Positions 3,898 to 41,047 of a DNA stretch of 42,509 nucleotides are shown one piece after another. The stretch is from a virus. Where the stretch lies: the IMG/VR virus record IMGVR_UViG_3300042484_002587, positions 1-42,509 of that record. One strand, written 5' to 3'. The position numbers were made by a program, and so were the translations under genes. The notes under the pieces were generated by a model, which ran no database searches, had not been told where the DNA came from, and saw nothing but the letters and a program-made list of their open reading frames with translations. How positions within the stretch are numbered: position 1 is the first letter of the stretch; every line of letters begins with the position of its first letter.

Positions 3898-5289
3898 ATG
3901 TTTTTAACATATCTAATGTTTTTGGTGGCGCTGTGCCTTAGCTCAGTTGCTGCGTTTTATAGTATAATAGGCCTAAGTGCCATATTCGCCGGTGCCGTCG
4001 TCCCCATTCTAATCATGGGATCTATTCTTGAGGTCGCCAAGCTTACTGTCACAGTGTGGCTGCATGAATACTGGCCGCGAGTGCACTTTACCATGAGGGC
4101 TTACTTGGTATCGGCAGTTGCTGTGCTCATGCTGATTACGAGTATGGGCATTTTTGGATTCTTGAGCAAGGCCCACAGCGATCAAGGTTTAGTTAGCGGC
4201 ACAGTGTTAGCCAAGATTGCCATCTACGACGAAAAGATCAAAACTGGGAAGGACAATATAGATGTCAATCGCAAGGCGCTCAAACAGATGGATGAGGCAG
4301 TGGATCAGGTCATGGGCCGCTCATCAGATGAAAAGGGTGCCGATAAAGCGGTACAGATTCGTAGAGGGCAGCAGAAGGAACGTGGCAGACTACTTGCCGA
4401 TATCGAAGCCGAGCAGAAAAAAGTTAGCCAGCTTGTGGAAGATCGAGCGCCCGTGGCAGCAGAGGTTCGCAAAGTTGAAGCAGAAGTTGGACCAATCAAA
4501 TACATAGCAGCATTGATCTATGGGGACAACCCGGACAGCAATACTCTAGAGCGGGCAGTAAGATGGGTAATTATTATACTGGTACTGGTGTTTGACCCAC
4601 TGGCCGTGATGATGTTGTTATCGGCAACTGAGAGTTTAAAATGGGAACGCGAAAAAAAAGAAGCTAACACCCAGCCCAAGGAAGAACTACCGCTGCCGGC
4701 TGATCCCCCGGCCAATGACATACATTCTTGGCCCACGGAATGGGCCGAAGAGACATATCAATTTGAAAAACCTACTCCAGTGCTGCCAGTTGAAGAACCC
4801 ACTGCGGTAGTCGAAGAACCAGTTGCAGAGGTTGAACAACTCGATCCAGATTATGTTGATATTGAACAAACCGTAGATGAATCATCTAAGGAAGCCAAGC
4901 GTCGGTGGAAAGCTGAGGATGGAGCGCATAGAATCAAATCCACTATCCGTATGTACGAGAAGGGTTTAATTGACCGCCTGCCTTGGGAAGACTATATAGA
5001 TGTGCCGGATAATAATCGAGATGTGCTGTTTGGTAACATCTGGCCTGAACAACCAGAAAAAGGTGATCAGTTCATCCGAATCGACTATAAACCCACCAAG
5101 GTTTACAAGTATAATAGTGTAAGATGGATAGAAGTAGATAAAACAGTAAATGGTAGATATGCATATAATACAGCGTATCTTGATTACTTGATTGATCGAA
5201 TCAAGTTAGGTGAATACAATACTGATTTACTAACCGATATTGAACGTGCACAAATTGAAGCCCACTTACAACGAGAAACTGGTCAATGA
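3898..5289 (+). CDS. Membrane-anchored coiled-coil protein
   Basis: About 463 residues from ATG 3898. The first ~90 residues hold three hydrophobic helices, followed by a long charged Glu/Lys/Arg/Gln coiled-coil region (roughly residues 100-200), another hydrophobic helix ([18 protein letters not shown]), then a Pro/Glu/Val-rich linker and an acidic/aromatic C-terminal domain. The pattern suggests an inner-membrane protein with a cytoplasmic tail. Family not recognised; similar multi-helix-plus-coil proteins occur in T4-like marine phages. A longer GTG start at 3841 would lie inside the terminator and is unlikely. No strong Shine-Dalgarno precedes 3898, so the start is uncertain. It overlaps clpX by 4 bp. 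Confidence 0.75.
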
Positions 5290-6479
5290 ATGAAACGCAA
5301 CTCTGTAGTTTTTGTAGTAAACCCAAAGATGCAGTTGCAAAACTGATTGTTAGTGATTCAGTTGCAATCTGCAATGAATGTGTAGCATTATGCACTGACC
5401 TCCTAGTGGACGAGCATGACAATCTAGTAATTGCTCCGGCACCGGAAGATCCTAAGAAAATGGATCCAATGAATCTCAAAGAGTATTTGGATCAGTATGT
5501 GATTGGCCAGGATCAAGCCAAGATCATGCTTAGTGTGGCAATTATCAATCACTACAAACGGATCAGTTGCACTGATCCCGAACGCGAGATAAACAAAGCA
5601 AACATCCTTATGGTCGGTCCTACTGGCACGGGGAAGACCCTGCTGGCAAAAACTGTAGCCAAGTACCTGGATGTGCCATTTGCTATTGCCGATGCAACTA
5701 GTCTTACCGAAGCCGGGTATGTAGGAGATGACGTAGAAAGTCTTATCAGCCGCCTACATGCCAATGGTGGTAATGACATTGCTAAAACACAGCGAGGAAT
5801 TGTGTTTGTGGACGAGATTGACAAGATTGCTCGCAAGAGTGAATCAGCATCAATCACACGCGATGTATCCGGCGAAGGTGTACAGCAGGCCTTGTTGAAG
5901 TTGGTCGAGGGCACCAAGTGCCGTATCCCTAGCACAGGTGGTCGCAAACATCCCACCGGAGAGATGACCGAGATTGATACCACTAACATTTTGTTCATTG
6001 CAGGCGGCGCATTTGTTGGGCTTAGTGGAATTGTAAAAAGTCGTATTAATGGAACCACTATTGGGTTCACTGGGTCTGTTAGCACACGGGAAGATGTAGA
6101 CCTGGATCTTGTAAATCCCGATGACCTTGTGCGCTTTGGTCTCATTCCTGAATTTGTGGGCCGTTTCCCGGGCATTGTTACTTTGAAAAAGCTTGAGCGT
6201 GTAGACATGGTTCGTATCCTAACCGAAGTCAAGAACAATTATATTGACCAGTATCAGTGGTTGTTTGAACAAGATGGTGTTGAGCTAACATTTACTACCG
6301 CAGCATTGGATACACTTGTAGATCGAGCTATGACATTGGGCACTGGTGCACGAGCACTGCATAGCGAGATTGAACGCACATTGATGCCGCACATGTTTAA
6401 TCTACGCCGGTATGTTGAGCGTGGGATTACCGGCATTCAAATAGACGTAGACAATATAAATACTCCAGCTGCATTGTAA
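5286..6479 (+). CDS. clpX: ClpX, AAA+ unfoldase of the Clp protease
   Basis: Unfolds tagged proteins and feeds them to ClpP. At 397 residues it is only slightly shorter than bacterial ClpX. Visible: N-terminal C4 zinc-binding domain (Cys 7, 10, 29, 32), Walker A GPTGTGKT (111-118), pore loop GYVG (144-147), Walker B VFVDEID (~173-179), RKH-type loop GGRKHP (218-223), IGF loop (259-261) that docks ClpX on ClpP, arginine finger in EFVGRFP, and sensor II GARAL. Everything needed for ATPase activity and ClpP partnership appears intact. It overlaps the preceding gene by 4 bp (ATGA) and is followed 13 bp later by the bS21 gene, suggesting co-expression. Two ClpP-like genes and clpS lie elsewhere in the window. 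Confidence 0.97.
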
Positions 6480-7042: not shown

Positions 7043-7483
7043 ATGACTAAAATCACTTCGTTTGACCTTTCCCCCTGGTACCGTAATTCGGTTGGTATTG
7101 ATCGATTGTTTGATCGCATTACTACCCAACTGGATACTGCTGCCAACAACAACTATCCCCCTTACGACATTATCAAGACCAGCGACAATCTCTATGAGAT
7201 TCGTATTGCTGCGGCTGGATTTACTCGGGCCGAGATTGATATTGAACACCATGATGGACGTTTGCTTGTCACTGCTGCCCGCGGTGAGAAAGCACGTCCA
7301 GAAGTAGAATATCTGCATCATGGAATCAGTAATCGTAGTTGGATTCGTAGTTGGACGTTAGCCGATTATGTCGAGGTTAAGGACGCTGTCATGAAAGACG
7401 GCATTCTAAGCATTCGTCTTGAGCACGTGGTTCCCGAAACCATGAAGCCCAAGAAGATTGTAATCGCGTACGATACTCAATAA
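7043..7483 (+). CDS. hsp20: Small heat-shock protein, Hsp20/alpha-crystallin family
   Basis: A 146-residue chaperone that would hold unfolding proteins and prevent aggregation. The alpha-crystallin domain runs roughly from residue 45 to 140: LYEIRIAAAGF, IDIEHHDGRLLVTA, and DGILSIRLEH, the usual A-x-x-x-G-x-L-type strand. The N-terminus (FDLSPWYRNSVGIDRLFD) resembles IbpA-type sequences. ATG 7043 has AGGAG 6 bp upstream. Hsp20 genes are common in T4-like cyanophages and pelagiphages. A hairpin separates it from clpS. Confidence 0.93.
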   Translation: MTKITSFDLSPWYRNSVGIDRLFDRITTQLDTAANNNYPPYDIIKTSDNLYEIRIAAAGFTRAEIDIEHHDGRLLVTAARGEKARPEVEYLHHGISNRSWIRSWTLADYVEVKDAVMKDGILSIRLEHVVPETMKPKKIVIAYDTQ

Positions 7484-7847: not shown

Positions 7848-8210
7848 ATGAATATTATCTTTTCTAGCCGCGCTGATGCCGAAAACCTTGCAACCAAGTA
7901 CACAGTGTTGGAACTTGACACACTATGGCGGCCGGGTAAAGAACAGCCCGAAACAGCTTGGTGCCTGCTAGATCAAGTGGCTTTACCGGATCTTTCGACC
8001 TTAGCTCAGTATCGAGACTTACACAACAACATGATGCGCAATTACCAATTGCGCAATTGGAAGTACTGTCAAGATGCGCTAGAGCATTTGATTGGACGTT
8101 GGCAGGGAGAACTTGACAGCTTCTACAAAAATATGTCTGCCCGTGTCACGAAATATCAGCAGACTGAGCCAGCAGCGGACTGGTCCAGCTTATTAGACTC
8201 TGCTGCTTAA
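7848..8210 (+). CDS. Unknown protein downstream of clpS
   Basis: A 120-residue protein, translationally coupled to clpS (TAATATG). It contains LELDT near the N-terminus and Trp/Gln/Asn-rich helices (YRDLHNNMMRNYQLRNW). No family recognised. Its last 65 bp overlap, tail to tail, the 3' end of the reverse-strand gene at 8146-9429. Confidence 0.7.
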   Translation: MNIIFSSRADAENLATKYTVLELDTLWRPGKEQPETAWCLLDQVALPDLSTLAQYRDLHNNMMRNYQLRNWKYCQDALEHLIGRWQGELDSFYKNMSARVTKYQQTEPAADWSSLLDSAA

Positions 8211-9429
8211 TATTACCAACCCATGGATATTGTTTACAGATACTAGCATATCTTTTGGGTTGATACTGTTGTAAATTTTGGATTATTAGAGTAAATCTCT
8301 CCCGGGGCGGTCCGACAGCCGAGTATCCGTCCTTAATAAATCGATTATGCATTTTAAATAACGGGCCGCCGGGGTCTTGTTCAAGCTTGATCTGTTGGGC
8401 TACTATGCTGTCTTTTATATTGGTATCTAACTCTTGCATTAATGTTTTTTCAAACGCCTCGCTGAAAAAATGCTGTTGGTTATGTAATACAATCTGTTGA
8501 CATTGCTCTAGTTTCTTTTGAAAAGCTATAGTATCGAGTTGAGACAGTTCGTATATTAGTTTGATAATTTTTTCTAATCGTTTATTTTCATCAACTTCGT
8601 CATCATAACTCTCGTCCCAGATTGAATCAAACGTTTGAAATCCGTATCTCTGTAAATATTTCAACGACCCGGGTCCAGCAAATACAATAAACGGCTGTAA
8701 CATCACTATGGGCTTGAATATTTTTTCTGTAAGATGAACTCTTTGATCAAACACTGTTTCGGCTACAAGATGTATAGCGGAATCACAGTCATTAACATCA
8801 ATAGTTGCACTAGCATCACTAGATATACCTAATTGATTTTTCCAGTCATGTTTAACATGAGTTTGAATTGGGCGAAGAAGATCTATTATGTGTTGTCGAT
8901 ACTGTCTTGATCCTGTAAAAGATCTTGCATATAGTAAAAATCTATGAGACCAACTTAATCGAATGTTAATGTCGGCGTGATGTTTCCAGTGTCGATACCA
9001 ATCTCGTGCTATAAATCCGTGCCAAAAATAATGGCATTCAATCATGCCTAGTTCTGTTAGATATTGAATGCCTGGACTATTTTCTTCACTGTGACACACG
9101 ATTGGCCACAAGGTCGACTCGCCGACTGTTACAGTCAAGTACTCTTCGATAGTAAAATGTGGTAGCCCGGAATATTTTCTCGACTCGAGATGCTGAGCGT
9201 AATAAGTATCTGCAGCATCAATCATAAATGGTTCTTGATCATGTAAGACCATTGAACCATACATGTTCCAGATCCCCACATCCTTAATAAATTGTTTTTT
9301 ATCATATAACGATATTAAGTCATCGAACTTTTTGGAACCATGTACGTTAAACTTATAAGGCATTACTTGGGTTTTATCCCAACCGTAATGTGAATTAAAG
9401 ATTGTATAGAAATTATCAACGGAGAACAT
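8146..9429 (-). CDS. Glycosyltransferase-like phage protein
   Basis: A 427-residue protein. The C-terminal half has the pattern VAETVFDQRVHLTEKIFKP, ...FIVFAGPGSLKYLQRYGF, then W-DESYD. This resembles exostosin/fucosyltransferase-like proteins found in many T4-like aquatic phages, where the LTEKxFKP-GP-G stretch forms the nucleotide-sugar-binding part. The substrate cannot be told; glycosylation of virion protein, DNA or host surface sugar is possible. It reads against its neighbours. The start codon (CAT 9427-9429) lies 2 bp from the ATG of the divergent dehydrogenase gene and has no clear Shine-Dalgarno; an internal ATG at 9363 is an alternative. Confidence 0.7.
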   Translation of the reverse strand: MFSVDNFYTIFNSHYGWDKTQVMPYKFNVHGSKKFDDLISLYDKKQFIKDVGIWNMYGSMVLHDQEPFMIDAADTYYAQHLESRKYSGLPHFTIEEYLTVTVGESTLWPIVCHSEENSPGIQYLTELGMIECHYFWHGFIARDWYRHWKHHADINIRLSWSHRFLLYARSFTGSRQYRQHIIDLLRPIQTHVKHDWKNQLGISSDASATIDVNDCDSAIHLVAETVFDQRVHLTEKIFKPIVMLQPFIVFAGPGSLKYLQRYGFQTFDSIWDESYDDEVDENKRLEKIIKLIYELSQLDTIAFQKKLEQCQQIVLHNQQHFFSEAFEKTLMQELDTNIKDSIVAQQIKLEQDPGGPLFKMHNRFIKDGYSAVGPPRERFTLIIQNLQQYQPKRYASICKQYPWVGNIKQQSLISWTSPLLAQSADIS

Positions 9430-9431
9430 AT

Positions 9432-10667
9432 ATGCAAATTGGTTTTATTGGACTAGGAAAGCTCGGACTAGAATGCGCCGAGGTGTTTGCTGAACGCAAC
9501 ACAGTGCGGGGATACGATATTTACCCACGCACAAGCAGCTTGGTAAAAGTATGTGACATTGACGAAGTGGTCAATGAAAGCGACTGGATTTTTATCGCAG
9601 TACCGACCCCGCATGCTGAGGGTTACGACGGAAGTTTACCTAGCAGTCACAAGGAACCACGAGACTTTGGGCATGATGCAGTTAAAGCGGCCATTGCTCA
9701 AGTCAACAAGTACGCAAAGTCACCAAAGAAGGTTGTGTTGATTAGTACTGTACTACCCGGTACTACCCGTCGTCACTTTATTACCTTGCTGGACAAGAAG
9801 CATCAGTTCTTGTACAACCCTTACCTTATTGCCATGGGATCAGTAAAGTGGGACATGGTCAATCCTGAGATGATTATGATTGGCACTGAAGATGGCAACC
9901 CCAACACCTTGGCACAAGAGTTGATTGACATTTACCGCCCCTTGATGCAAAACAATCCTCGTTACGAGATCGGCACCTGGGATGAATGCGAAGCAATTAA
10001 GATTTTCTACAACACGTTTATTTCTGCCAAGGTGGGTCTTGTCAACATGATCCAGGACTTTGCTATGCGTATTGGTCATATCAATGTGGATGTGGTGACC
10101 AATGCACTGTCCAACTCTACTATGCGTATCATGGGACCCAAATACATGACTGCTGGTATGGGGGATGCCGGTGCCTGTCATCCGCGCGACAACATTGCAC
10201 TGCGTTGGCTAGCAGAAGAGTACGATGTTGGGTATGACTTGTTTGACACTATCATGTCTGCTCGTGAAGCACAGGCCAAAAATCTTGCCATGTTCTTGAT
10301 CGGGCAGAGCAATCGTCACTGCTTGCCTATTGTAATCCATGGTAAAGCATACAAGCCCAATGTAGCTTATTGTATTGGTAGTTACTCAACGCTGATCGGG
10401 CATTACATTGTTGAAGCTGGGCATCAGGTGGTATACATTGATCCACTTGCTGATGATCCTACTGATGTTGTAGCTGATGTTGACTATGCAGCAGTAATCC
10501 TTATGGCACATAACCGCAAGATTACATACGGTTATACTGGGACAGAAGCCGACGATCCCGACTACTTTAAATTCTGCCCAGGATCTGTGATTGTTGATCC
10601 GTTCCGCAAAGAACCGGATCGTGAAGGTATGACGGTAGTACATTATGGCAACACACGAAACAAGTAA
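9432..10667 (+). CDS. UDP-glucose/GDP-mannose 6-dehydrogenase family protein
   Basis: A 411-residue NAD-dependent enzyme family that oxidises a sugar-nucleotide hydroxymethyl group to a carboxylate. Visible: Rossmann motif GLGKLG (7-12), AVPTP (56-60), STVLPGTT (105-112), conserved Lys 190 in EAIKIFYN, and active-site Cys 249 in GDAGACHPRDN, followed by a C-terminal Rossmann-like domain (GKAYKPNV, then VVYIDP). The middle motif differs from the usual GGSCFPKD, so the substrate may not be UDP-glucose. GGAG lies 7 bp before ATG 9432. It overlaps the next gene by 23 bp and likely forms an operon with the oxygenase, amidinotransferase and fibre genes. Confidence 0.85.
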   Translation: MQIGFIGLGKLGLECAEVFAERNTVRGYDIYPRTSSLVKVCDIDEVVNESDWIFIAVPTPHAEGYDGSLPSSHKEPRDFGHDAVKAAIAQVNKYAKSPKKVVLISTVLPGTTRRHFITLLDKKHQFLYNPYLIAMGSVKWDMVNPEMIMIGTEDGNPNTLAQELIDIYRPLMQNNPRYEIGTWDECEAIKIFYNTFISAKVGLVNMIQDFAMRIGHINVDVVTNALSNSTMRIMGPKYMTAGMGDAGACHPRDNIALRWLAEEYDVGYDLFDTIMSAREAQAKNLAMFLIGQSNRHCLPIVIHGKAYKPNVAYCIGSYSTLIGHYIVEAGHQVVYIDPLADDPTDVVADVDYAAVILMAHNRKITYGYTGTEADDPDYFKFCPGSVIVDPFRKEPDREGMTVVHYGNTRNK

Positions 10668-11163
10668 GTATAACATTACTATTTTCTGGGACGATGAGTT
10701 TAAAAGGCTTGAGTATATCAAGGAGCCTTTTAATGATCCTGTCAGCGTAAACACCTGGATTAGTCAAGGTTACCAAAGTAAAATTACTGGTGACTTGTGT
10801 GACATGCGCCATCGTTTGCCCGATTGGGCCGGCAGATTCATCAAATATTACGAAGATCTAGGCTGGCAGGATGTAGGACTTGCATTCTATCGCATGCATA
10901 CCGGAACAGTTATGCCTAACCACAGTGATTTATATCGACGGTACATTGAGTTGTTTGATCTAGCAGGACGCGAATCTACAATTCGTCGAGCACTGGTGTT
11001 ACTTGAAGACTGGAAGTCCGGCCACTATCTGGAAGTCATGGGCAGTCCGGTTGTAGAGTGGTCTGCTGGCACTGTGTTAGAGTGGACGTATGATACCCCA
11101 CACATGGCAGCAAACATTGGCCTTGAAGATAGATATACCTTGCAGGTAACCGGTCACTTATGA
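10645..11163 (+). CDS. 2-oxoglutarate/Fe(II)-oxygenase-like protein (copy 1)
   Basis: A 172-residue protein with the double-stranded beta-helix signature of 2OG-Fe(II) dioxygenases: H93-x-D95 in PNHSD, distal His 153 in TPHMAANIG, and Arg 163 in DRYTLQVTG to bind 2-oxoglutarate. Such enzymes hydroxylate proteins, nucleic acids or small molecules. The local pattern (YRMHTGTVMPNHSDLY, LLEDWKSGHYLE) matches small oxygenases common in cyanophages. It overlaps both neighbours (23 bp upstream, 4 bp downstream), implying coupled translation. A paralogue with the same motif order lies at 37413-37934. Confidence 0.8.
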   Translation: MATHETSKYNITIFWDDEFKRLEYIKEPFNDPVSVNTWISQGYQSKITGDLCDMRHRLPDWAGRFIKYYEDLGWQDVGLAFYRMHTGTVMPNHSDLYRRYIELFDLAGRESTIRRALVLLEDWKSGHYLEVMGSPVVEWSAGTVLEWTYDTPHMAANIGLEDRYTLQVTGHL

Positions 11164-12077
11164 AAATTCACAGCTACAATGAGTGGGACACGCTGAAAGA
11201 AATTGTAGTTGGAACAGCAACCAATGCCAACTGGCCGTTGCATGATCCTGTGTTTGCGCTAGAGAGTAAGAAAACTACATGGCATGAGACCCCGGTGCCA
11301 AACGGCCCTGTACCACAGTGGATTATTGACGAGACAAATGAAGACCTAGACGGCCTGGTTAAAATTTTGCAGCAAGCCGACGTTACTGTGCACCGTCCCA
11401 AGGACCTGGACTTTGTTGGCTACGACGGCATGTATAACTATTGCCCACGTGACCGCTTGTTGATTGCAGGCAATTGTATTATTGATCCTGTTATGATGTA
11501 TCCTGCCAGGGATATTGAACTAGCTGCGTTAGGATGTGTTATACAACGGAACGAGCTAGTGACCATGCCCAGGCACTGGGGAATAGTGTTAGATGCTGCA
11601 AATATCTGCAGACTTGATGACACCTGGTTGTTTTTAGAATCAAGTTCGGGCAACCGTGCAGCAGCAGTATGGTTACAGGCACGTTTCCCTGAGATTCATA
11701 TTGAGTTATGCAACTTCTATGCAGGTGTGCACATTGACTCCACTGTGGTTCCGTTGAGAGAAGGTGTAGTCATGCTAAATGCCAGTCGCGTAACTCCGGA
11801 CACAGTGCCCAAATGCCTGCGATCCTGGACACAGATTTGGATCGATGACTGTGTACCACAACAGTTCTACCAGTATCCATACGCATCAAAGTGGATTGGT
11901 ATGAACACACTCAGCATCAATCCCGACACTGTGATTGTAGATGCAACACAAACTGATATTATTAAACGACTAGAAGCAATGAAGTTTACTGTAATTCCTC
12001 ATACCTTACGACACAGTAGAACACTAGGGGGCGGATTTCATTGTGTTACCCTAGATACCTGGAGACAGAATGATTGA
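11160..12077 (+). CDS. Glycine amidinotransferase-like enzyme
   Basis: A 305-residue pentein-fold enzyme of the amidinotransferase family, which moves an amidino group from arginine to an amine through a Cys-thiouronium intermediate. The triad can be read directly: Asp 145 in LDAANI, His 191 in AGVHIDSTVVPL, and Cys 295 in GGGFHCVTLD. The N-terminus has the family-like NEWDTLKEIVVG. It is shorter than bacterial AGAT (about 350-390). The acceptor is unknown; the surrounding sugar dehydrogenase, oxygenase and fibre genes suggest modification of a sugar, base or virion protein, which is inference. ATGA overlap with the previous gene, 8-bp overlap with the next. Confidence 0.87.
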   Translation: MKIHSYNEWDTLKEIVVGTATNANWPLHDPVFALESKKTTWHETPVPNGPVPQWIIDETNEDLDGLVKILQQADVTVHRPKDLDFVGYDGMYNYCPRDRLLIAGNCIIDPVMMYPARDIELAALGCVIQRNELVTMPRHWGIVLDAANICRLDDTWLFLESSSGNRAAAVWLQARFPEIHIELCNFYAGVHIDSTVVPLREGVVMLNASRVTPDTVPKCLRSWTQIWIDDCVPQQFYQYPYASKWIGMNTLSINPDTVIVDATQTDIIKRLEAMKFTVIPHTLRHSRTLGGGFHCVTLDTWRQND

Positions 12078-13362
12078 TACACAAGTGTTTGGAAATCTAA
12101 TAGAAACACAAATCAAATTAGTAGTTGAGCAGCAGGTAGCAACTCAAATTGCCGAGCGTGACTGGTTTGACACAGTTGAGGCCAAGGTTACCAAGTACAT
12201 CCAGGATCGGATCACTGCCAAATTCCGTAGTCTTGAATCGGTTCCTGAACTTATTGACACTGTGAAGACCAATGTTCAGAGCTTGTTTGATCAAGGGCGC
12301 ATTCCCGGGATTGATGCATACGTTGACCAAGCAACAATAAACACTGCAATTGATTTGGCAGTGCAAACACTTGTTTCGGAGTCGATTGAAAATCTAAGTC
12401 AGGATGACGCTTGGGTCAAGAAAATTGAACAGTTGGTTAATCATCAAATGGCCACTAAACTGTTTGAGAGATTGAGCAGTATTGATCTTGATGCAATGGT
12501 AGTAAAGCATATTGATTTGAGTATTGACAAGTGGCATGCTCGAATAACTGACAACTTTGCTAGTCGTGGTATTGTGGACCAGGCTCAGGACGTGCAGTTA
12601 GTGATCACAGATGAGACTGTGTATATCAAACCACATTTGGTAACGAATTCAGTTAAGATTGAAACTGATGCACATGTTGATGGGTCTCTCTCAGTTAACA
12701 ACTTGCTGGTACGCGGAATCATCAACACCGATAACCGCAGTTGGGACGAGATTACTAACCGTGCTGCCGCTCAGGCGGTTACCCGCATTGGGGATAGTTG
12801 GAAGACTCAATTAGTTGACCAAGTTCTGGAGCTGGCAAAAACACAAGGTATCGGGTTCGACCATGTAACTATCAATGGTAACCCGTTGTATACTGGTAAT
12901 ACGCTTACTCCGGATATTACAGAATCTAACATACAAAAAATTGGTGTGCTGCGTGACTTGCATGTGGATGGGCACACCGAGCTTAACCAAACTCTAAACG
13001 TACATCGGCGGCGCGTGGGTATCAACACAACTGATCCCGAAATGGCCCTGAGCGTGTGGGACGAAGAAGTATCGATTGTGGCTGGCAAGATCAAACAAGG
13101 CCAGGCTTACATTGGTACCGGTAGATTACAAAATTTAGCCATTGGAATTAATCGAACACCCTTGATGGAATTTGACACCGACGGGTTAACCACAATCAAG
13201 CAACTCAGGATAGGGCAACACAGGATCAGTTATGCACCTGGGGTTCCTGGATATATGGGAACTCGTGGTGACCTGGTGTTTAACTCTGATCCCAAACCCA
13301 ACACACCTTTTGCTTGGGTATGTTTAGGCGGGGTCAAGTGGCAAACAATTAAAGGTGCATGA
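12070..13362 (+). CDS. Tail-fibre / fibre-connector-like structural protein
   Basis: A 430-residue protein. The first ~190 residues are strongly helical and probably coiled-coil (VEQQVATQIAERDWFDTVEAK...). Then comes a beta-rich fibre segment with HVDGSLSVNNLLVRG, LHVDGHTELNQTLNV and RRRVGINTTDPEMALSV, repeats typical of phage fibre shafts and hinge connectors. The C-terminus (GTRGDLVFNSDPKPN-F-WVCLGGVKW) resembles fibre-tip domains. It probably forms a trimeric fibre. It overlaps the amidinotransferase gene by 8 bp and touches the next start. Confidence 0.8.
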   Translation: MIDTQVFGNLIETQIKLVVEQQVATQIAERDWFDTVEAKVTKYIQDRITAKFRSLESVPELIDTVKTNVQSLFDQGRIPGIDAYVDQATINTAIDLAVQTLVSESIENLSQDDAWVKKIEQLVNHQMATKLFERLSSIDLDAMVVKHIDLSIDKWHARITDNFASRGIVDQAQDVQLVITDETVYIKPHLVTNSVKIETDAHVDGSLSVNNLLVRGIINTDNRSWDEITNRAAAQAVTRIGDSWKTQLVDQVLELAKTQGIGFDHVTINGNPLYTGNTLTPDITESNIQKIGVLRDLHVDGHTELNQTLNVHRRRVGINTTDPEMALSVWDEEVSIVAGKIKQGQAYIGTGRLQNLAIGINRTPLMEFDTDGLTTIKQLRIGQHRISYAPGVPGYMGTRGDLVFNSDPKPNTPFAWVCLGGVKWQTIKGA

Positions 13363-13916
13363 TGCGTGTTAACTGGGTATTTGCTACCGGCTATAATCTT
13401 GATCCAACTGTAAACATTGAGCAATTAAAGTCCTGCGGCCCTACCTGGGGAAGCTGGAGTACTTGGCGCGGGTGTGGAACTGACAACGTAATATGTCACG
13501 ATCAAACCAAGCTACAGCAATTACTTCAACGAAACTTCCAGGCCAATTGCAATTTTTACATGCCAAACAACTTGTATGGTGATTTGGGGCGCCCACACGG
13601 GGTCAGGATATACAACGGAGAATATCTAGCCGAATTGGACAACATCGAGGATATAATTTCATTGCACTTGGTTGCCCCAATTTCGGACATTGTGCTGCTA
13701 GCCGGGTTTAATTTGGCAAAGTTGATCCCGGTAGAGGATCGATTCGAGTTGCACAAAATTCGTAATTATCACGGACTGATTCGAAGTACTATTGCAACCA
13801 GCCCCACAGTACAATGGGTAGTGGTTGATCATCCGGCTGAATTGGATAAAGCTTATCGTGAACTTGACAATATAACTTGCGATACAATGGAAAATGTGTT
13901 ACAATTGATCACTTAA
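13362..13916 (+). CDS. Unknown protein after fibre gene
   Basis: A 184-residue protein of unknown family with a mixed alpha/beta composition, Cys-rich near the N-terminus (SCGPTWGSWSTWRGCGTDNVICHD). Two adjacent ATGs exist (13359 and 13362); the second has AAAGG at a normal 6-bp distance. It overlaps the fibre-like gene stop, so it is probably in the same late operon. Possible roles are a fibre-associated or base-recognition protein; nothing in the sequence decides. Confidence 0.7.
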   Translation: MRVNWVFATGYNLDPTVNIEQLKSCGPTWGSWSTWRGCGTDNVICHDQTKLQQLLQRNFQANCNFYMPNNLYGDLGRPHGVRIYNGEYLAELDNIEDIISLHLVAPISDIVLLAGFNLAKLIPVEDRFELHKIRNYHGLIRSTIATSPTVQWVVVDHPAELDKAYRELDNITCDTMENVLQLIT

Positions 13917-13939
13917 CACACTCTATACAAGGCTGTACA

Positions 13940-14953
13940 ATGACTGGTCGTATTGGATTTTGCTGCAAATGGCTAGACAATGTCTCGGAGGTTAAAGGCA
14001 TGAAAGTAAATGCTGCCAACAGAGAACTGAATGGTCGAAGTACCACCATGCGATGGCTGCGTGAACACCCGCTAGAAGCTGAACAACGGCAGTGGGACAT
14101 CATGAATCATAATACCAGTGCGGCTGTCAAGATGATTGAACGTGTAGCGCAACTGCCTGCTGAACGTAGGATGGTGCGTATAGGATCGGAAATGCTCCAG
14201 GGCTATACTGAAAAAGACTGGAAGGCATGGTGGCAACAGTCCGATGTACAAAGTCATCTTGCACGCATCTTTGCTCCTGTTGGCGAAACAGCACGTAGAC
14301 TAGATGTCAGACTCAGCTTTCACCCAGGACAGTTTTGTGTGTTGGCCAGTGAGAATCCGGGTATTGTAGAACGTTCGATAGAGGAGTTTGAATATCATGC
14401 AGATATGGTCAGGTGGATGGGATACGGCAAGACTTTCCAGGACTTTAAAATCAACGTACACATCTCAGGTAAACAAGGTCCCGCCGGTATTCGAGCTGCT
14501 ATCCGACGTCTTAGCCCCGAAGCAAGAAACTGCATCACCATCGAAAATGACGAAAACTGCTGGGGGATTGATAGCAGTCTTGAACTTGCTGAACACTGTG
14601 CCCTTGTACTTGACATACATCATCACTTCATTCGCACTGGAGAGTACATCCAAGCATCAGATGATAGAATTAAGCGAATAATTGATAGTTGGAGAGGGGT
14701 AAGGCCGGCAATACACTTCAGCCAAAGCAGAGAAGATGTGCTGGTTGATCATGCTGTTGATGTGCTGCCAACCATGACTACATTATTGGCACAAGGATAT
14801 AAAAAGCAAAAATTAAGAGCCCACAGTGACTTTATGTGGAACACTGCTTGCAACAAATGGGCACTAACACATCTGGAATGGGCCGATATTCAAGTCGAAG
14901 CCAAGGGTAAAAACTTAGCTAGCCAACAACTGTATGACTCTTGGACTATGTAA
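13940..14953 (+). CDS. uvsE: UV-damage endonuclease (UvdE/UvsE family)
   Basis: A 337-residue TIM-barrel repair nuclease that nicks 5' to UV photoproducts and abasic sites. Visible family features: RIGFCCKWL at the N-terminus, LSFHPGQFCVLAS, VHISGK, ITIENDEN (metal-binding Glu/Asp), LDIHHHF (metal-binding His), IHFSQSR and AHSDFMWN. The length fits bacterial UvdE (about 300-350). ATG 13940 has AAGG 7 bp upstream. For a phage in sunlit water, repair of its own or host DNA would be useful; that ecological reading is inference. Confidence 0.95.
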   Translation: MTGRIGFCCKWLDNVSEVKGMKVNAANRELNGRSTTMRWLREHPLEAEQRQWDIMNHNTSAAVKMIERVAQLPAERRMVRIGSEMLQGYTEKDWKAWWQQSDVQSHLARIFAPVGETARRLDVRLSFHPGQFCVLASENPGIVERSIEEFEYHADMVRWMGYGKTFQDFKINVHISGKQGPAGIRAAIRRLSPEARNCITIENDENCWGIDSSLELAEHCALVLDIHHHFIRTGEYIQASDDRIKRIIDSWRGVRPAIHFSQSREDVLVDHAVDVLPTMTTLLAQGYKKQKLRAHSDFMWNTACNKWALTHLEWADIQVEAKGKNLASQQLYDSWTM

Positions 14954-16257: not shown

Positions 16258-16294
16258 GCCTGTGCGTGTATGCTATATACACGTACAGGCTTTT
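16258..16294 (+). terminator. Strong rho-independent terminator
   Basis: A 14-bp stem, GCCTGTGCGTGTAT (16258-16271) with ATACACGTACAGGC (16277-16290), containing one G-U pair and a five-base loop, then TTTT. Confidence 0.9.
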
Positions 16295-16300
16295 GTCATT

Positions 16301-16879
16301 ATGGCGACCATACCACTCGAAGACCCCTTATACTCTCTCTATACTGCTGAAACCCGCACTGCTGGAATATACGTGTTCATGGGACCCGTGGATGCAGAAA
16401 CCATACGGCCCATTGTTGAATGGATCCTGTGCGAAAACTATGTTGTAAAGAAAAAACGCAAAGAACTCTTGCTAATGATTTGCAGCGAGGGCGGAGACAC
16501 AGCAGCAGCATTTGCACTGATTGATGTAATGAAGTCTAGTCGTGTTCCGATCAAAACTATCGGCCTGGGCATGATTGCATCTGCTGGATTGTTGATTTTC
16601 CTTGCTGGCACACCCGGCCGTAGACTACTAACACCCAACACCAGCATCCTGAGCCATCAATTTAGTTGGTACAATGAAGGCAAGGCACATGAGCTGTTTG
16701 CCACAATGAAAGAGTTTGAGCTGACGCAGAACCGCATGGTTGCGCACTACCAAGCTTGTACTGGGCTAACAGAAGCAAAGATTAGACAACACCTGTTGCC
16801 ACCACAGGATGTATGGCTTAGTGCACAAGATGCACTAACGTTGAAAGTCTGCGATCATGTTGCAGACTTGACTCATTAA
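16301..16879 (+). CDS. Divergent ClpP-like serine protease
   Basis: 192 residues. Alignment by eye to ClpP keeps the triad: Ser 94 in GMIASAGLLIFLAG, His 119 in ILSHQ, and Asp 170 in PPQDVWLSAQDAL, spacing very like E. coli ClpP (97/122/171 in the mature enzyme). CSEGGD replaces the usual NSPGG oxyanion strand. It is clearly more divergent than the second copy at 18534, so it could form mixed rings or a separate peptidase. ATG 16301 lies just after a terminator and lacks an obvious Shine-Dalgarno; an in-frame GTG at 16262 would lie inside that hairpin. Its stop overlaps the reverse-strand stop by 4 bp. Confidence 0.85.
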   Translation: MATIPLEDPLYSLYTAETRTAGIYVFMGPVDAETIRPIVEWILCENYVVKKKRKELLLMICSEGGDTAAAFALIDVMKSSRVPIKTIGLGMIASAGLLIFLAGTPGRRLLTPNTSILSHQFSWYNEGKAHELFATMKEFELTQNRMVAHYQACTGLTEAKIRQHLLPPQDVWLSAQDALTLKVCDHVADLTH

Positions 16880-18471
16880 CGCTTCTTGCGCCCAAAGACT
16901 GATGCATTAACACCGGCTCCGCGATCAGGGGCAGGAGCACGTCTAGCAACAACCTTGCTACGAGCTTGGTCGACAGTGTCAAGTTGATCATTGTCGGCAG
17001 AAACACCCGGGGAAGCAGGGAAGTCGGCAGTGTCGGCCTCTTTTGGTCCTTCTTCCTTGTTGGGCACCAACTTGGGTTCCTTGTTGATATTGAACACTAG
17101 TTTACCACTGGAACTGGATGTCGAGCTGTAGCTCTTTGCTGCCTCGAGTGTAACTTCCGTGAACAACTTGCTGGGCCATACAGTTGTGAATCCTTGGATC
17201 ACAAACTCGCCATTCTTGGCCTTGCTGGCGTTGGTGTACATCTGCACAAACGCCGAGTGGTTAAGAATGTCTGCAGCAGCATCGCTGAAGTTGGTTTTCA
17301 TGTTGATCTCGTTAATCACCTTGTAAGCAATTGAACTAACCAAGTGATTCATTGGCACAATCTTACTGGGATCATCTGCAGTGCGTTCTTTGTAGATCTT
17401 TTTTAAGTTGTCAGTAAGATCAGTATCATCAATATTGAATCCCTCTACCCCGGCATACTTTTTCAATGACATTACTTGTTGTGCTTCGTCGGGCGTGATC
17501 ATATCATACTGCATGGCAAGATTCAGCGGGCCAGAGTTATGATCACCTTTGTCAATCACTTCTAAGATGTCAATAATATCTCGATACTTTTTACCGAAAT
17601 CAGACATTCCGGCTGCTTCAAGTTCTCGCACTGCAACCAACAGGTTAACAGAACTGGCCATAGCTCCCTTGGCACCCTTGCTGGACAATTTGATTTGCTT
17701 GCCGTCTGGACTGACCAACAAGCTATCATACAGGCCACCGGAAACATTTTGGTTAAAGCTGACTGTACAATCCGAGTAACCATTCTTGCCCATGAACAAG
17801 GCCGCAGCTTCGGCTGCATTTCCTGACACCGCGCCACCATTGATCAACACAATAGGTTGCAGCATTTCACAGAAGTAGTCTCGGAAGCCTTTGAAGTCCA
17901 TGTTGCCACCGGGCACAGTGACAGGAAACGTGCGAGCATTGGAAATAATTACAGCAGCCTGATATTCGTCGCTATCTTGTCCGAACTTGGTGGCAATTTG
18001 CGCTAATATACTTTTAGGAGTCTGATTTTTAAAGTCTGTTAACACGTCACTGGGTTTGTATCCAGCTTTTTCTTTGGACCCACGAGCATCAGTTTGACTA
18101 AAGTTTCCCGGAATGTCTTTGGTTTGGAAGAAAGTGTTTTGCGTTTTAACTGGTTTGATGTCTCTGGCAAACTTGGCCAAGTACCGTGTGCCTACCGCAG
18201 TGTCAAACGTAGCAATACCAAATGCTCGTAGGCCGGCTGTGGGCTGATTGATTTTTTCAATCGGATGCCCGACCCGTTTCTGTACTTGATCAAACGCAGC
18301 CATGGTAGCTTCTTCAGTGGGATAGCTGCCGACTTTGGGATAGAACTCCAAGCTTTGGAATACAATTTGGTCATCAGCCTCGCTGCTGCGGGCATACGAC
18401 GAGCCAGGTAAACGGGCACTGAGTCCGCGGCTTTCGCTAACATAATCGAGTAGGTTGAGTAAGTGTCTCAT
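16876..18471 (-). CDS. Large unknown protein with an SSKG motif
   Basis: A 531-residue protein not assigned to a family. The N-terminal 100 residues are mixed. The middle contains [23 protein letters not shown] and then [23 protein letters not shown], an Asp-then-Ser/Lys arrangement faintly like metal-dependent nuclease cores. The C-terminus is low-complexity, charged and Pro/Ala-rich ([14 protein letters not shown]..., ending RKKR), as in DNA-associated or packaged proteins. It is on the reverse strand between the two clpP genes. Possible roles: an internal virion or DNA-binding protein, or a nuclease. Confidence is high that it is a gene, low for its function. Confidence 0.8.
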
Positions 18472-18499
18472 TGTTTTTTCCAGGAAGTTGTGTTATACT
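18471..18499 (+). promoter_or_regulatory. Promoter for clpP
   Basis: TTGTTT at 18471-18476, 17-bp spacer, TATACT at 18494-18499. AAAGGA follows near 18521, upstream of ATG 18534. Confidence 0.6.
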
Positions 18500-18533
18500 T
18501 ATCAAACACTTATTAATAATAAAGGATTTAATT

Positions 18534-19121
18534 ATGCCCAATCTTGTACCCATCGTCCTCGAAAACACCAGCAAGGGCGAACGCAGCTACGATATCTACA
18601 GTCGACTACTGCGAGATCGAATTATCATGTTGGACACCGAAGTTAGCAGTCACTCGGCTAGCCTTGTTGTGGCACAAATTTTGTTCTTGGAAGCAGATGA
18701 CCCCGAGAAGGATATTCTTCTCTACATCAACAGTCCCGGTGGATCAGTAACAGCAGGCATGAGCATTTATGATACCATGCAGTTTGTCAAGTGTGACATT
18801 GCTACTATTGTCATGGGCCAGGCAGCTAGCATGGGGTCACTGTTGGCAGCGGCAGGTGCTCCGGGCAAGCGCAGTATTTTGCCCAATGCACGGCACATGA
18901 TCCACCAGCCCTTGGGCGGCGCATCGGGCCAGGCCACTGACGTTGAGATTCAGGCCCGCGAGCTTTTGCGATGGAAGCAAGTGCTGACCGATATATATGT
19001 CAAGCACACAGGGCAAACCTTTGAACAGCTTAAATCGGACATGGAGCGTGACAACTTCATGACCGCAGAGTCTGCTGTAGCATACGGGCTTGCTGATCGG
19101 GTGGTAACAGCACGGGTATAG
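18534..19121 (+). CDS. clpP: ClpP, proteolytic subunit of the Clp protease
   Basis: A 195-residue serine peptidase, very close to bacterial Clp[24 protein letters not shown] at the N-terminus, [11 protein letters not shown], Ser 99 in MGQAASMGS, His 124 in MIHQPLGG, Asp 173 in ERDNFM. It begins in a mature-like form, with almost no propeptide ahead of the axial loop. It would assemble into double heptamers and degrade substrates fed by ClpX. AAAGGA lies upstream of ATG 18534; an upstream extension to 18471 overlaps the promoter and is not used. The asparagine-synthetase-like gene starts 1 bp after its stop. Confidence 0.97.
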
Positions 19122-19122
19122 C

Positions 19123-20310
19123 ATGTTTTTTAATCTAGCACAACAACACAAACCAAACTTTGTAGCACACTGGCCCTTGGGGAGCCTTGTGCTCAACACT
19201 GACGCAGGTTGGTGTCAGGTTGATATTGACCACTACACCTGCGTGTACAAGGGATATGCTGAGGACTACAGGCTTGCAGATGGTATCCAGAATTTGATAC
19301 ATCAGACAGTACCCCGGGACCTTGGTAATTTTTGTGTAGTTGTGCTAGATAATGTTTCTGGGGAAATATTCTTTCGCACTGATCTGTACCGTAGCTTCCC
19401 AATATGGCAACATGAGTCGGGCGAGATTACCAATCTTGTAACCGGCAAACAAACATTCTGGACCGACAGCCTGATCACAGTTGATCAATCGTTAGCAGTA
19501 CAGGAACAAAAATTTGATATAATTGGCACAATCGACGATTCAGAGTTGTCAGTCAAGCAGGTGGTATCAATGATCAACAGTCGGCTTCTTGCGCGTGCCC
19601 AACAATTTGTCGACAACAATCCCGGTCGGATCAACGTCTTTTTAAGTGGCGGTGTGGACACCATGTTGGTGTTTGGTTTGTTGCAATCAGTAACTTGCAA
19701 CTATCGAATAATTTCTGGCAGTGGTATTGAATTCGATGAGTTTTGGTTAAAGAACTCGGGCACAATTACCAAGAACTTCTGGGGCTATAGCCAAATCCAT
19801 CACTGGAGAGCTCCGTCTATACTAGCATCGGGCGCCCCAGGTGATGAGTTCATGTTGCGTAGTCCAACCACACTTGATCTCTATCTTAAATATCACGGCA
19901 TCGATACTGCAACTGAACTGGAAAAGCCCGAGTGGAGTGACTGCCTGCACTACAAGTATTTTCATAGGCCCAGCAACCAAGCAATTTTCCATCGCCAGGG
20001 TGTTAATCGCGCCCAATCTCGTACCGAACTTGTTCAGTCACTGTGCAACATCATCGTCAACGACTGGCAACACTGGCATCTTGGCAACACACTGACATGG
20101 ACACCGTTACGGGATCTTGAGATATTCAAGTTGATTCTTCGTTTACCACTGACTGCTGCAATGGATCAAATTTTCAACAGCACCATCTCATGTCAGCTGA
20201 TCGAGAAAAACTCTCCGGGCGCGACCAAATGGATCAGCACTCACAAGAACAGCGATAACCCGTTGGAAAATCTGTGTGATTTCCTGCTGCCCAAACTGCC
20301 TAAAATTTGA
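19123..20310 (+). CDS. Asparagine-synthetase-like protein
   Basis: A 395-residue protein with the PP-loop ATP-pyrophosphatase motif FLSGGVDTML (SGGVD at 175-179) and a downstream SGAPGDEF resembling the GGDE motif of AsnB. The N-terminal ~130 residues resemble the class II glutaminase domain in shape (VLNTDAGW, FFRTDLYRSFPIW) but lack the catalytic Cys at position 2, so glutamine hydrolysis is unlikely; ammonia use or another adenylation reaction is more plausible. It is coupled to clpP. The TGA stop (20308-20310) is inside the -35 box of the next promoter. Confidence 0.85.
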   Translation: MFFNLAQQHKPNFVAHWPLGSLVLNTDAGWCQVDIDHYTCVYKGYAEDYRLADGIQNLIHQTVPRDLGNFCVVVLDNVSGEIFFRTDLYRSFPIWQHESGEITNLVTGKQTFWTDSLITVDQSLAVQEQKFDIIGTIDDSELSVKQVVSMINSRLLARAQQFVDNNPGRINVFLSGGVDTMLVFGLLQSVTCNYRIISGSGIEFDEFWLKNSGTITKNFWGYSQIHHWRAPSILASGAPGDEFMLRSPTTLDLYLKYHGIDTATELEKPEWSDCLHYKYFHRPSNQAIFHRQGVNRAQSRTELVQSLCNIIVNDWQHWHLGNTLTWTPLRDLEIFKLILRLPLTAAMDQIFNSTISCQLIEKNSPGATKWISTHKNSDNPLENLCDFLLPKLPKI

Positions 20311-22647: not shown

Positions 22648-23250
22648 ATGAAAGTTACCGACATACTTTACGAATCCGGACTTAGTCGAGTATTCTCTGC
22701 TACCCGTGATCACGATTACGGCACCATCACAGCATTTCGCTTTGCGCCAGATTGCGGTCTTGGAAAACCATACACTTACTCTGAGAACATTCGGCGTAAT
22801 AAGAGTTTATTGGCAAAGTTGCGGGCCAGTGGATATGGTGTAACCTCTATCAAGGGCAGTTACATTGAAAACTACAACACAGAGAATGCTCGCGAAGTCG
22901 GCGAAAACTCGTTCCTAGTAGTCGACATGCAGGACCGAGGCAACTTAAAACAAACTCTTATGGCGTTAGGCGAAGAGTTTGACCAAGATTCTATCATTTT
23001 TGGTGCCGCAGGCGAAGTAGGTACTCTTATCGGAACCAATCATTGCGAAGATGGGTATCCGGGCTACCATAATGAAATCCCACAAGGCGGTGCTATCTTT
23101 GGTAAGTCCGGAGAGTTTATGAGCCGTGTCAATGGTAGACCGTTTGTGTTCGCCGAGACTACAGAATTAACAGAATACGGGGTTGCCAAATACCCCACTG
23201 AACTACGTGGCCCTGTTGCCACCGCTGCTAAAAACTGGAAAGACTTGTAA
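22648..23250 (+). CDS. Unknown protein, 200 residues
   Basis: 200 residues. The core YGVTSIKGSYIEN...EVGENSFLVVDMQDRGNLKQTLMALGEEFDQDSIIFG is a striking Gly/Asp-rich pattern seen in conserved phage proteins, and GEEFDQDSIIFG plus PQGGAIFGKSG look like ligand or nucleotide contacts. I do not recognise the family with confidence. No Shine-Dalgarno is obvious before ATG 22648. The next gene starts directly after its stop. Confidence 0.7.
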   Translation: MKVTDILYESGLSRVFSATRDHDYGTITAFRFAPDCGLGKPYTYSENIRRNKSLLAKLRASGYGVTSIKGSYIENYNTENAREVGENSFLVVDMQDRGNLKQTLMALGEEFDQDSIIFGAAGEVGTLIGTNHCEDGYPGYHNEIPQGGAIFGKSGEFMSRVNGRPFVFAETTELTEYGVAKYPTELRGPVATAAKNWKDL

Positions 23251-28009: not shown

Positions 28010-28756
28010 ATGAAAAAATTCCTTTACAGGTTAATTGATCGCATCTCTGAGTGGGATCGTTACCCACAGCCCAACTGGTTTCAGAAACGTCTGTTGGGCA
28101 TGTACACTGACAGTATCGACACTGACTTTACTGCTCGTAAGTTAGCGTCTGTTCAGTCAGTACGGTTCATTCTAGAAAACATGAGGAAGGTGAAAAACTT
28201 CCCAACTGACTACGATTTGCATGAGTATATCAGTGCCAAGACTCTAGAACCTGAGCTGCGCAAGACTGGACTTGTACTGGAATTTGGTGTGGCTACAGGG
28301 CGAACTCTTAACCAGTTTGCCCGTTTTCTCCCGGAGAAAACTGTGCATGGGTTTGACGGATTTGACGGATTGCCTGAAGTATGGGACAGTCGATTTGAAA
28401 CCGGGGCCTTCAAACAAAACAATCTACCTGACGTTCGCAACAACTGTAAATTGCATGTGGGATGGTTTGATTACACTCTGCCCGAGTTCCTCGAAGATGC
28501 AGCACACCAAGGACCCATTGCCTTGCTGCACATTGATGCAGACTTGTACTCTAGTACCAAGACTGTGCTTGATTTGTTGCAAAAACAGATTGTGCCTGGA
28601 ACTGTGATTGTGTTTGATGAGTACCTTAACTATCCAGGTTGGCAGTTGGATGAGTTCCGTGCTTGGCAGGAGCATGTTGCAGCACATCGTATCAAGTTTG
28701 AATACATTGGCTACGTGAGCCGGCATCAACAAGTGGCAGTCCGTGTACTGAAATAG
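28010..28756 (+). CDS. TylF-type SAM-dependent methyltransferase
   Basis: 248 residues. Motif I LEFGVATGRTLN, VHGFDGFDGLPEVWDS and LHIDADLYSSTKTVLD (acidic Asp binding SAM and metal), FDEYLNYPGW near the end: the macrocin O-methyltransferase/TylF pattern. Phage copies usually lie with sugar or surface-modification genes. The substrate is unknown. Weak Shine-Dalgarno before ATG 28010; coupling to the lysis operon is possible. Confidence 0.85.
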   Translation: MKKFLYRLIDRISEWDRYPQPNWFQKRLLGMYTDSIDTDFTARKLASVQSVRFILENMRKVKNFPTDYDLHEYISAKTLEPELRKTGLVLEFGVATGRTLNQFARFLPEKTVHGFDGFDGLPEVWDSRFETGAFKQNNLPDVRNNCKLHVGWFDYTLPEFLEDAAHQGPIALLHIDADLYSSTKTVLDLLQKQIVPGTVIVFDEYLNYPGWQLDEFRAWQEHVAAHRIKFEYIGYVSRHQQVAVRVLK

Positions 28757-40498: not shown

Positions 40499-41047
40499 AT
40501 GAACATTCGAGATCATATCAATATCCTAGAAGCTACCACGCGACCTGCCAAGCTAGAAACTACTCCTCTTCCCTACGGTGAAAAGGATCTTGAGCCAGTG
40601 TTGAGTAAAGAAAGTTTAGAATACCATTATGGGCATTTGGCCCGGGGTTATGCCAAGCGTTACAACGCAGGCGAAGGTGATCCCGAGTTTAATCGAGCCG
40701 GCAGCTTTTTGCACAACAAGTTCTTCCCGCAATTTCGTAAACCCAAGTCGGGTAACCGACCACGTGGTGCGGTAGCCGAGCTGATAGAATCCAAGTTTAA
40801 AACATTCGACGACTTTCAGGATGCAATTAAAGAAGCAGCAATGAAGATACAAGGCAGTGGATGGGTATACTTGAGCACCGGCGGCGAAATCAAGATCATA
40901 CACAACCATGCTGTGCGTACTGATATTGCTTTGTTGATTGACTGGTGGGAGCATGTTTGGGCGACCGATTACCAGTGGGACAAAGAAAAATACCTAGCCA
41001 ACATCTGGCGTATTATCAACTGGGACGTAATAAACGAACGACTATGA
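40499..41047 (+). CDS. sodB: Fe/Mn superoxide dismutase
   Basis: 182 residues. Metal ligands all visible: His 43 in EYHYGHL, His 72 in FLHNKFF, Asp 148 and His 152 in [38 protein letters not shown] and GSGWVYL are typical SOD segments. Converts superoxide to peroxide and oxygen. The first ~20 residues are an extra N-terminal extension. Fe versus Mn cannot be decided. Coupled to the IscA-like gene by a 4-bp overlap. Confidence 0.93.

Follow-up and report, generated by a model that had tools for sequence, protein, structure and literature searches.

What might a phage make with a sugar dehydrogenase, an oxygenase and an amidinotransferase whose genes overlap one another and run into the gene of a fibre-like protein? 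The question is raised by a 42.5-kb linear virus record (42,509 nt, IMGVR_UViG_3300042484_002587), which is called the window here. No close phage record was found for it, and 20 kb of its sequence gave no match to phage records in a megablast search. We consider it rather probable that the block is a phage sugar-tailoring cassette, by which an amino-sugar would be hydroxylated, guanidinylated and then added to a glycan.

Organization of the gene block

The genes in and around the block are as follows.

8146..9429, minus strand: GT-B-like protein, 427 aa (weak fold matches; divergent from the adjoining UGD)
9432..10667, plus strand: UGD, predicted nucleotide-sugar (UDP-glucose type) 6-dehydrogenase, 411 aa (phrog_9148, Pfam, PDB, residues)
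10645..11163, plus strand: OXY, predicted Fe(II)/2-oxoglutarate oxygenase, 172 aa (motif, confident model, PDB fold matches)
11160..12077, plus strand: AMT, predicted StrB1-like L-arginine:amine amidinotransferase, 305 aa (phmmer, invariant triad)
12070..13362, plus strand: FIB, fibre-like protein, 430 aa (sequence motifs)
13359..13916, plus strand: conserved 185-aa protein (ORF, alignment of relatives)
13919..14953, plus strand: UvdE-type UV endonuclease (PF03851, 4e-32)

According to the ORF list, UGD and OXY overlap by 23 bp (10645-10667), OXY and AMT by 4 bp (11160-11163) and AMT and FIB by 8 bp (12070-12077), the same overlaps from which an earlier note on this DNA had concluded that the four genes are probably made together. 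The coupling holds and takes in at least five genes, since there is also a 4-bp overlap between FIB and the gene at 13359-13916. The product of this fifth gene found no match in a PDB profile search. The UvdE-type gene comes after the block in many relatives, and its UV endonuclease is probably outside the pathway. The TylF-type methyltransferase gene further on, also mentioned in the earlier note, is real (28010-28756, PF05711, E 8e-11), but it was rejected as a pathway member, being 15 kb from the block with no linkage evidence. An anti-phage defence system was rejected as well, with zero PADLOC matches among seven proteins.

Predicted enzymes of the block

The UGD reading frame opens at a TTG (9402), while alignment of relatives backs the ATG at 9432 as the start. 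UGD matches phrog_9148 'UDP-glucose dehydrogenase' (E 1.6e-89) and UDP-glucose dehydrogenases in the PDB (1e-37), and both PF03721 and PF00984 are above cut-off. Its NAD-binding GxGxxG motif and catalytic Cys249, Lys190, Asn194 and Asp253 are invariant in 12 sequences. As UGD falls under the NCBIfam equivalog cut-offs (TIGR03026, 131 vs 190 bits; AglM, 100 vs 670 bits), we file it more broadly as a nucleotide-sugar dehydrogenase.

OXY was barely detected by sequence libraries; against PF05118 (aspartyl/asparaginyl beta-hydroxylase) it scored 14.5 bits with a gathering cut-off of 22.6 (E 0.03). Its predicted structure is of high confidence (pLDDT 95.4) and matches prolyl-4-hydroxylase (5e-6) and AspH in the PDB. 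His93-x-Asp95, His153 and Arg163 (HxD...H...R) are invariant in 46 sequences. Model and alignment together thus point to the DSBH fold, the HxD...H motif and the 2OG-binding arginine of Fe(II)/2OG oxygenases, and OXY is predicted to be one of them.

For AMT, the nearest PDB relative is StrB1, the inosamine-phosphate amidinotransferase of streptomycin biosynthesis (phmmer, 1bwd, 3e-58), followed by AGAT (4e-26), SxtG (3e-25) and HsvA (6e-22). The pentein-fold triad Asp145, His191 and Cys295 is invariant in 11 sequences, and the Cys-His-Asp triad and the HxDST-VPLR stretch are common to AMT and StrB1. Judged by sequence, AMT is a shortened amidinotransferase of the StrB1 type, its triad complete, and an arginine donor and an amine acceptor are predicted for it. 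StrB1 differs in its length (348 aa, vs 305 aa for AMT, which is shortened between the two matched regions) and in its partners, since AMT stands with UGD and a 2OG oxygenase and without streptomycin enzymes. The acceptor of StrB1 is an aminocyclitol phosphate, a point in favour of the sugar-tailoring reading.

The catalytic residues are hence intact in UGD, OXY and AMT. Family matches and active sites agree with the chemistries that the earlier note had assigned to them, namely sugar carboxylation, hydroxylation and amidino transfer, as predicted activities.

These enzymes might also be read without a sugar acceptor: the substrate of OXY and AMT would be a protein side chain or a small metabolite, for instance a virion residue to be hydroxylated, or a polyamine or amino acid to be amidinated, and the sugar genes would be neighbours with another role. 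We regard this as unlikely. The best folds for OXY are indeed protein hydroxylases, and some members of the AMT superfamily, such as AmtA, use lysine or other amino acids (PMC4887976). However, HsvA and AGAT are far more distant from AMT than StrB1 is, and in two phage groups that are unrelated, homologues of OXY and AMT are repeatedly clustered with genes for DegT, epimerase and glycosyltransferase (GT) enzymes, as described below.

The reverse-strand neighbour, which the earlier note had likened to a glycosyltransferase, does resemble one weakly. Its AlphaFold model (pLDDT 88.8) gives top PDB matches that are mostly GT-B enzymes (SdgB, the phage HY126 glycosyltransferase, a fucosyltransferase), at E 0.02-0.3 and TM of about 0.3. 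Pfam and NCBIfam gave no match, and nothing in the PDB fold search was below E 0.001. The model thus hints at a GT-B-like glycosyltransferase.

FIB gave no match in phage records and no firm family match. Its N-terminal half is variable, its C-terminal motif RGD-VFN...P-AW-CLGG is conserved in the alignment, and one of its relatives weakly matches phrog_4549 tail fiber (E 0.022). By its sequence, FIB looks fibre-like.

Conservation of the block in IMG/VR

AMT has more than 585 relatives in all. Searches seeded on AMT, OXY and UGD yielded 143 distinct AMT loci, 132 of them with enough upstream sequence. OXY was found in 130 of these 132, UGD in 124 and the reverse GT-like gene in 110, and all three accompanied AMT in 102. 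Within the set of 124 loci, 76 share the 23-bp overlap between UGD and OXY and 87 the 4-bp overlap between OXY and AMT. Downstream of AMT, FIB was detected in 60 of the 124, some contigs ending early, and its 8-bp overlap is kept in 34. Because the arrangement recurs with the same overlaps in more than 100 distinct loci at an AMT identity of about 60-70%, it is far beyond chance; the locus counts are nevertheless not independent, since the loci come from related phages found by similarity. An additional gene stands between AMT and FIB in 32 loci (for example L107:6953-7702 and L116:6931-7674); it encodes a conserved product of about 245 aa, whose copy in L009 has no Pfam match.

The block is not invariable. 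UGD is absent from 8 of the 132 loci while GT-OXY-AMT is kept, and in two loci (L103 and L106) OXY and GT are absent and UGD is joined to AMT by a 4-bp overlap. Not every step can therefore be obligatory, and the lack of both OXY and GT in L103 and L106 is a point in favour of the side-chain or metabolite reading. When the search was seeded on UGD (80 loci), 47 lay in the block, counting loci with OXY, and 22 were of a NadE-UGD form. Outside the block, about two thirds of UGD genes are beside a NadE-like gene, with sugar epimerase or C-methyltransferase genes where the flank allows. In one record with a UGD-less block (G008), a NadE cluster elsewhere contains UGD; the seven other UGD-less records, several of them fragments, have no UGD elsewhere. 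The tight unit is OXY-AMT, which UGD and GT often accompany. The four-gene unit of the earlier note stands as regards OXY and AMT, but UGD can move to another sugar cluster and FIB is found in only about half of the loci. The same holds for the co-occurrence analysis that it had suggested: OXY, UGD and GT are kept with AMT, FIB less so. Scattering of each gene to unrelated places in relatives, which it had named as counting against a shared pathway, was for the most part not seen.

Such losses and moves of UGD, GT and FIB would be expected if there were no shared pathway, and independent auxiliary genes were together by descent and translational coupling. We give this explanation a small chance, lower than that of the side-chain reading. 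OXY and AMT are still adjacent in cyanophages, an unrelated setting in which they are 31-35% identical, and in locus L217 UGD occurs with OXY, AMT, FIB and GT all missing together from its side.

A bacterial source of the OXY-AMT pair was also considered and rejected: one genome scan gave five bacterial homologues of AMT (33-37% identical), and no OXY was seen beside them by eye in the listed ORFs, tblastn matching AMT only. The sixth match of the scan, L175 (DLXM01000205.1), is a contig of 4.4 kb from the bin of a Bacteroidetes MAG; it carries GT-OXY-AMT-FIB and is likely phage DNA that was binned there.

Sugar-gene surroundings in cyanophages and jumbo phages

In Synechococcus phage S-SCSM2R (PQ898602), OXY (31% identical) and AMT (35%) are adjacent with a 4-bp overlap, as in the window, and lie amid consecutive glycosyltransferase genes, together with genes for a DegT enzyme of 195 aa and a radical SAM protein. 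This phage differs in that its UGD is distant in both place and sequence (28%) and that no fibre gene adjoins OXY-AMT. Across 64 distinct loci of the cyanophage AMT family, OXY (47 loci), a short DegT (56) and a GT25-like gene (57) were found within a few kb. DegT-OXY-AMT stand in direct order in L330 and L346, and AMT adjoins UGD in L370.

A DegT match was found in 20 of the 22 jumbo relatives searched, and six short DegTs sampled there share 37-45% identity with the cyanophage enzyme, two of these (in L188 and L190) being followed by an OXY paralogue. In the jumbo phages the block and the short DegT are far apart, and DegT would be outside the 42.5-kb fragment, a point against the tailoring reading. 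Eight sampled jumbo genomes carry a second cassette in the order epimerase, DegT, a large opposite-strand ORF, GT, GT and AMT2, so that homologues of the 8146-9429 protein, to whose family these GTs belong, adjoin a second amidinotransferase. AMT2 is 65-88% identical among the second cassettes, and a carbamoyltransferase gene is downstream in L206. All of the AMT paralogues conserve the His and Cys of the active site; only some also conserve the Asp, the alignment of which is unsure in the others.

Further amidinotransferase homologues are frequent in these genomes, with up to about six genes of the superfamily per genome (L198:4895-7168, L199:4259-6899, L189:472-1533, L201:5808-6863), and two extra ones compared with the PDB were AGAT-like. 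The position of the opposite-strand protein in the second cassette is constant, and its length varies widely, from 521 to 2047 aa (L213:3089-9232, L207:3315-7118, L208:9580-13179, L206:3665-5230); in L213 it consists of many FDYSWHPNP...PPYIYHF repeats. It was considered as a tail fibre and rejected, being made of repeats and giving no match to fibres.

Co-clustered GT, epimerase and aminotransferase genes, the hallmark of phage glycan-biosynthesis clusters, are thus found with the relatives' OXY, AMT, UGD and GT homologues; within the window, the glycan-cluster genes are UGD and the GT-like gene only.

Proposed pathway

The idea of the earlier note that an unusual group is built gains from these OXY-AMT relatives within sugar clusters. 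Because OXY and AMT homologues co-cluster with DegT, epimerase and GT genes, we favour an amino-sugar substrate, and the amine-donor step missing from the block is plausibly a DegT aminotransferase. Substrates, step order and product are our proposal, built on the observed gene identities, active sites, coupling and co-clustering. UGD would oxidize a nucleotide hexose to a uronic acid. A DegT-type aminotransferase, encoded elsewhere in the phage genome, would put an amine on the sugar or sugar-like precursor, OXY would add a hydroxyl to it, and AMT would transfer the amidino group of arginine to its amine. The reverse-strand GT-B-like enzyme and others would then add the guanidino-sugar to a glycan.

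Target of the product

The earlier note had left the fibre, the DNA and a host glycan as destinations. DNA is a candidate since the DNA of Bacillus phage SP-15 is glycosylated and hypermodified (glucuronate), and a group could be placed on phage DNA bases in the same way. SP-15 has a distant UGD (22%) beside UTP-glucose-1-phosphate uridylyltransferase and glycosyltransferase genes. However, the block is without a DNA-modification gene, the thymidylate-synthase/hydroxymethylase family (PF00303) was found in only 1 of 22 relatives, whose records may be incomplete, and no QueC was convincing, the two matches over cut-off including the NadE-like gene of G008. A DNA target is therefore disfavoured, and we consider it highly improbable; the fibre and the host surface remain from the earlier proposal.

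The same chemistry might instead place the sugar on the host envelope (LPS or capsule), for example for a superinfection block or so that progeny do not stick. This version is possible, at a clearly lower probability than the sugar-tailoring reading in general, with which it is compatible. Host-surface remodelling has been proposed for large freshwater phages that encode Clp protease, DegT and many sugar functions (PMC9723584), LPS-like clusters have long been known in cyanophages, their function stated outright to be unknown in a 2010 survey (PMC3037559), and the OXY-AMT cluster of S-SCSM2R has no adjoining fibre gene. In the opposite direction, the FIB-AMT overlap conserved in 34 loci points to the virion, and glycoproteins occur in the virion of jumbo phage XacN1, which encodes glycosyltransferases of its own (PMC5852040). 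The fibre target is weakened because FIB was not detected in about half of the loci. Our guess slightly favours the virion surface (the fibre) over the host envelope as the site of the tailored sugar.

Other genes of the window

The window has a ClpX-like gene (5286-6479), an Hsp20 gene (7043-7483, PF00011) and two ClpP-like genes (16262-16879 and 18471-19121), the Clp genes being read from sequence; such a Clp/Hsp20 set is also reported for freshwater bS21 phages. The protein of 19123-20310 has a PP-loop-like SGGVDT motif and is asparagine synthetase-like by eye, with no match in Pfam, PHROG, NCBIfam or PDB. An S-adenosylmethionine lyase-like gene (22648-23250, PF23780, 8e-10) has a possible anti-restriction role, and a Fe/Mn superoxide dismutase gene is located at 40499-41047 (PF02777, 9e-21). 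AGGAGG occurs 4 times against 12.4 expected, and as it is rarer than expected the host may be one without strong Shine-Dalgarno use, e.g. Bacteroidetes.

Relation to known systems

Phage sugar clusters, phage UGDs and the amidinotransferase module of Campylobacter phage CP220 are already known (PMC2853527). In Kyanoviridae, NadE-UGD-carbamoyltransferase clusters of Synechococcus phage Bellamy and Pelagibacter phage HTVC008M have UGDs 56% and 48% identical to ours in sugar operons, but with a NadE-like partner and no annotated amidinotransferase; some jumbo relatives carry this NadE-UGD form. The radical SAM-amidinotransferase module of CP220/CPt10, described as exchangeable (PMC2853527), likewise has a phage amidinotransferase among sugar-transferase-like genes; it differs in that AMT is only 21-24% identical and the partners are radical SAM enzymes. 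The CP220 gene upstream of the amidinotransferase was considered as an OXY and rejected, having no similarity to OXY. As the earlier note had supposed, no phage pathway with this gene set was described in the literature searched, which included few subscription-journal papers or bioRxiv preprints; the same applies to the UGD-OXY-AMT block, the DegT-OXY-AMT pathway and the multiple amidinotransferases.

Phage sugar clusters have been without assigned function for more than ten years (PMC3037559), and this module offers a compact chemical handle on them: a sugar guanidine would stand out readily in mass spectrometry, and with three small genes, expression and enzyme assays are feasible. A bolder and tentative extension is that large freshwater phages and cyanophages share a dedicated DegT-OXY-AMT pathway, several amidinotransferases being encoded in some genomes, and would display hydroxylated, positively charged guanidino-uronic sugars on their fibres. 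Such a display, if true, would represent a viral glycan of a new class. The module occurs in hundreds of freshwater viral contigs, and if the tailoring proposal is true, viruses would make their own cationic glycans by antibiotic-type chemistry.
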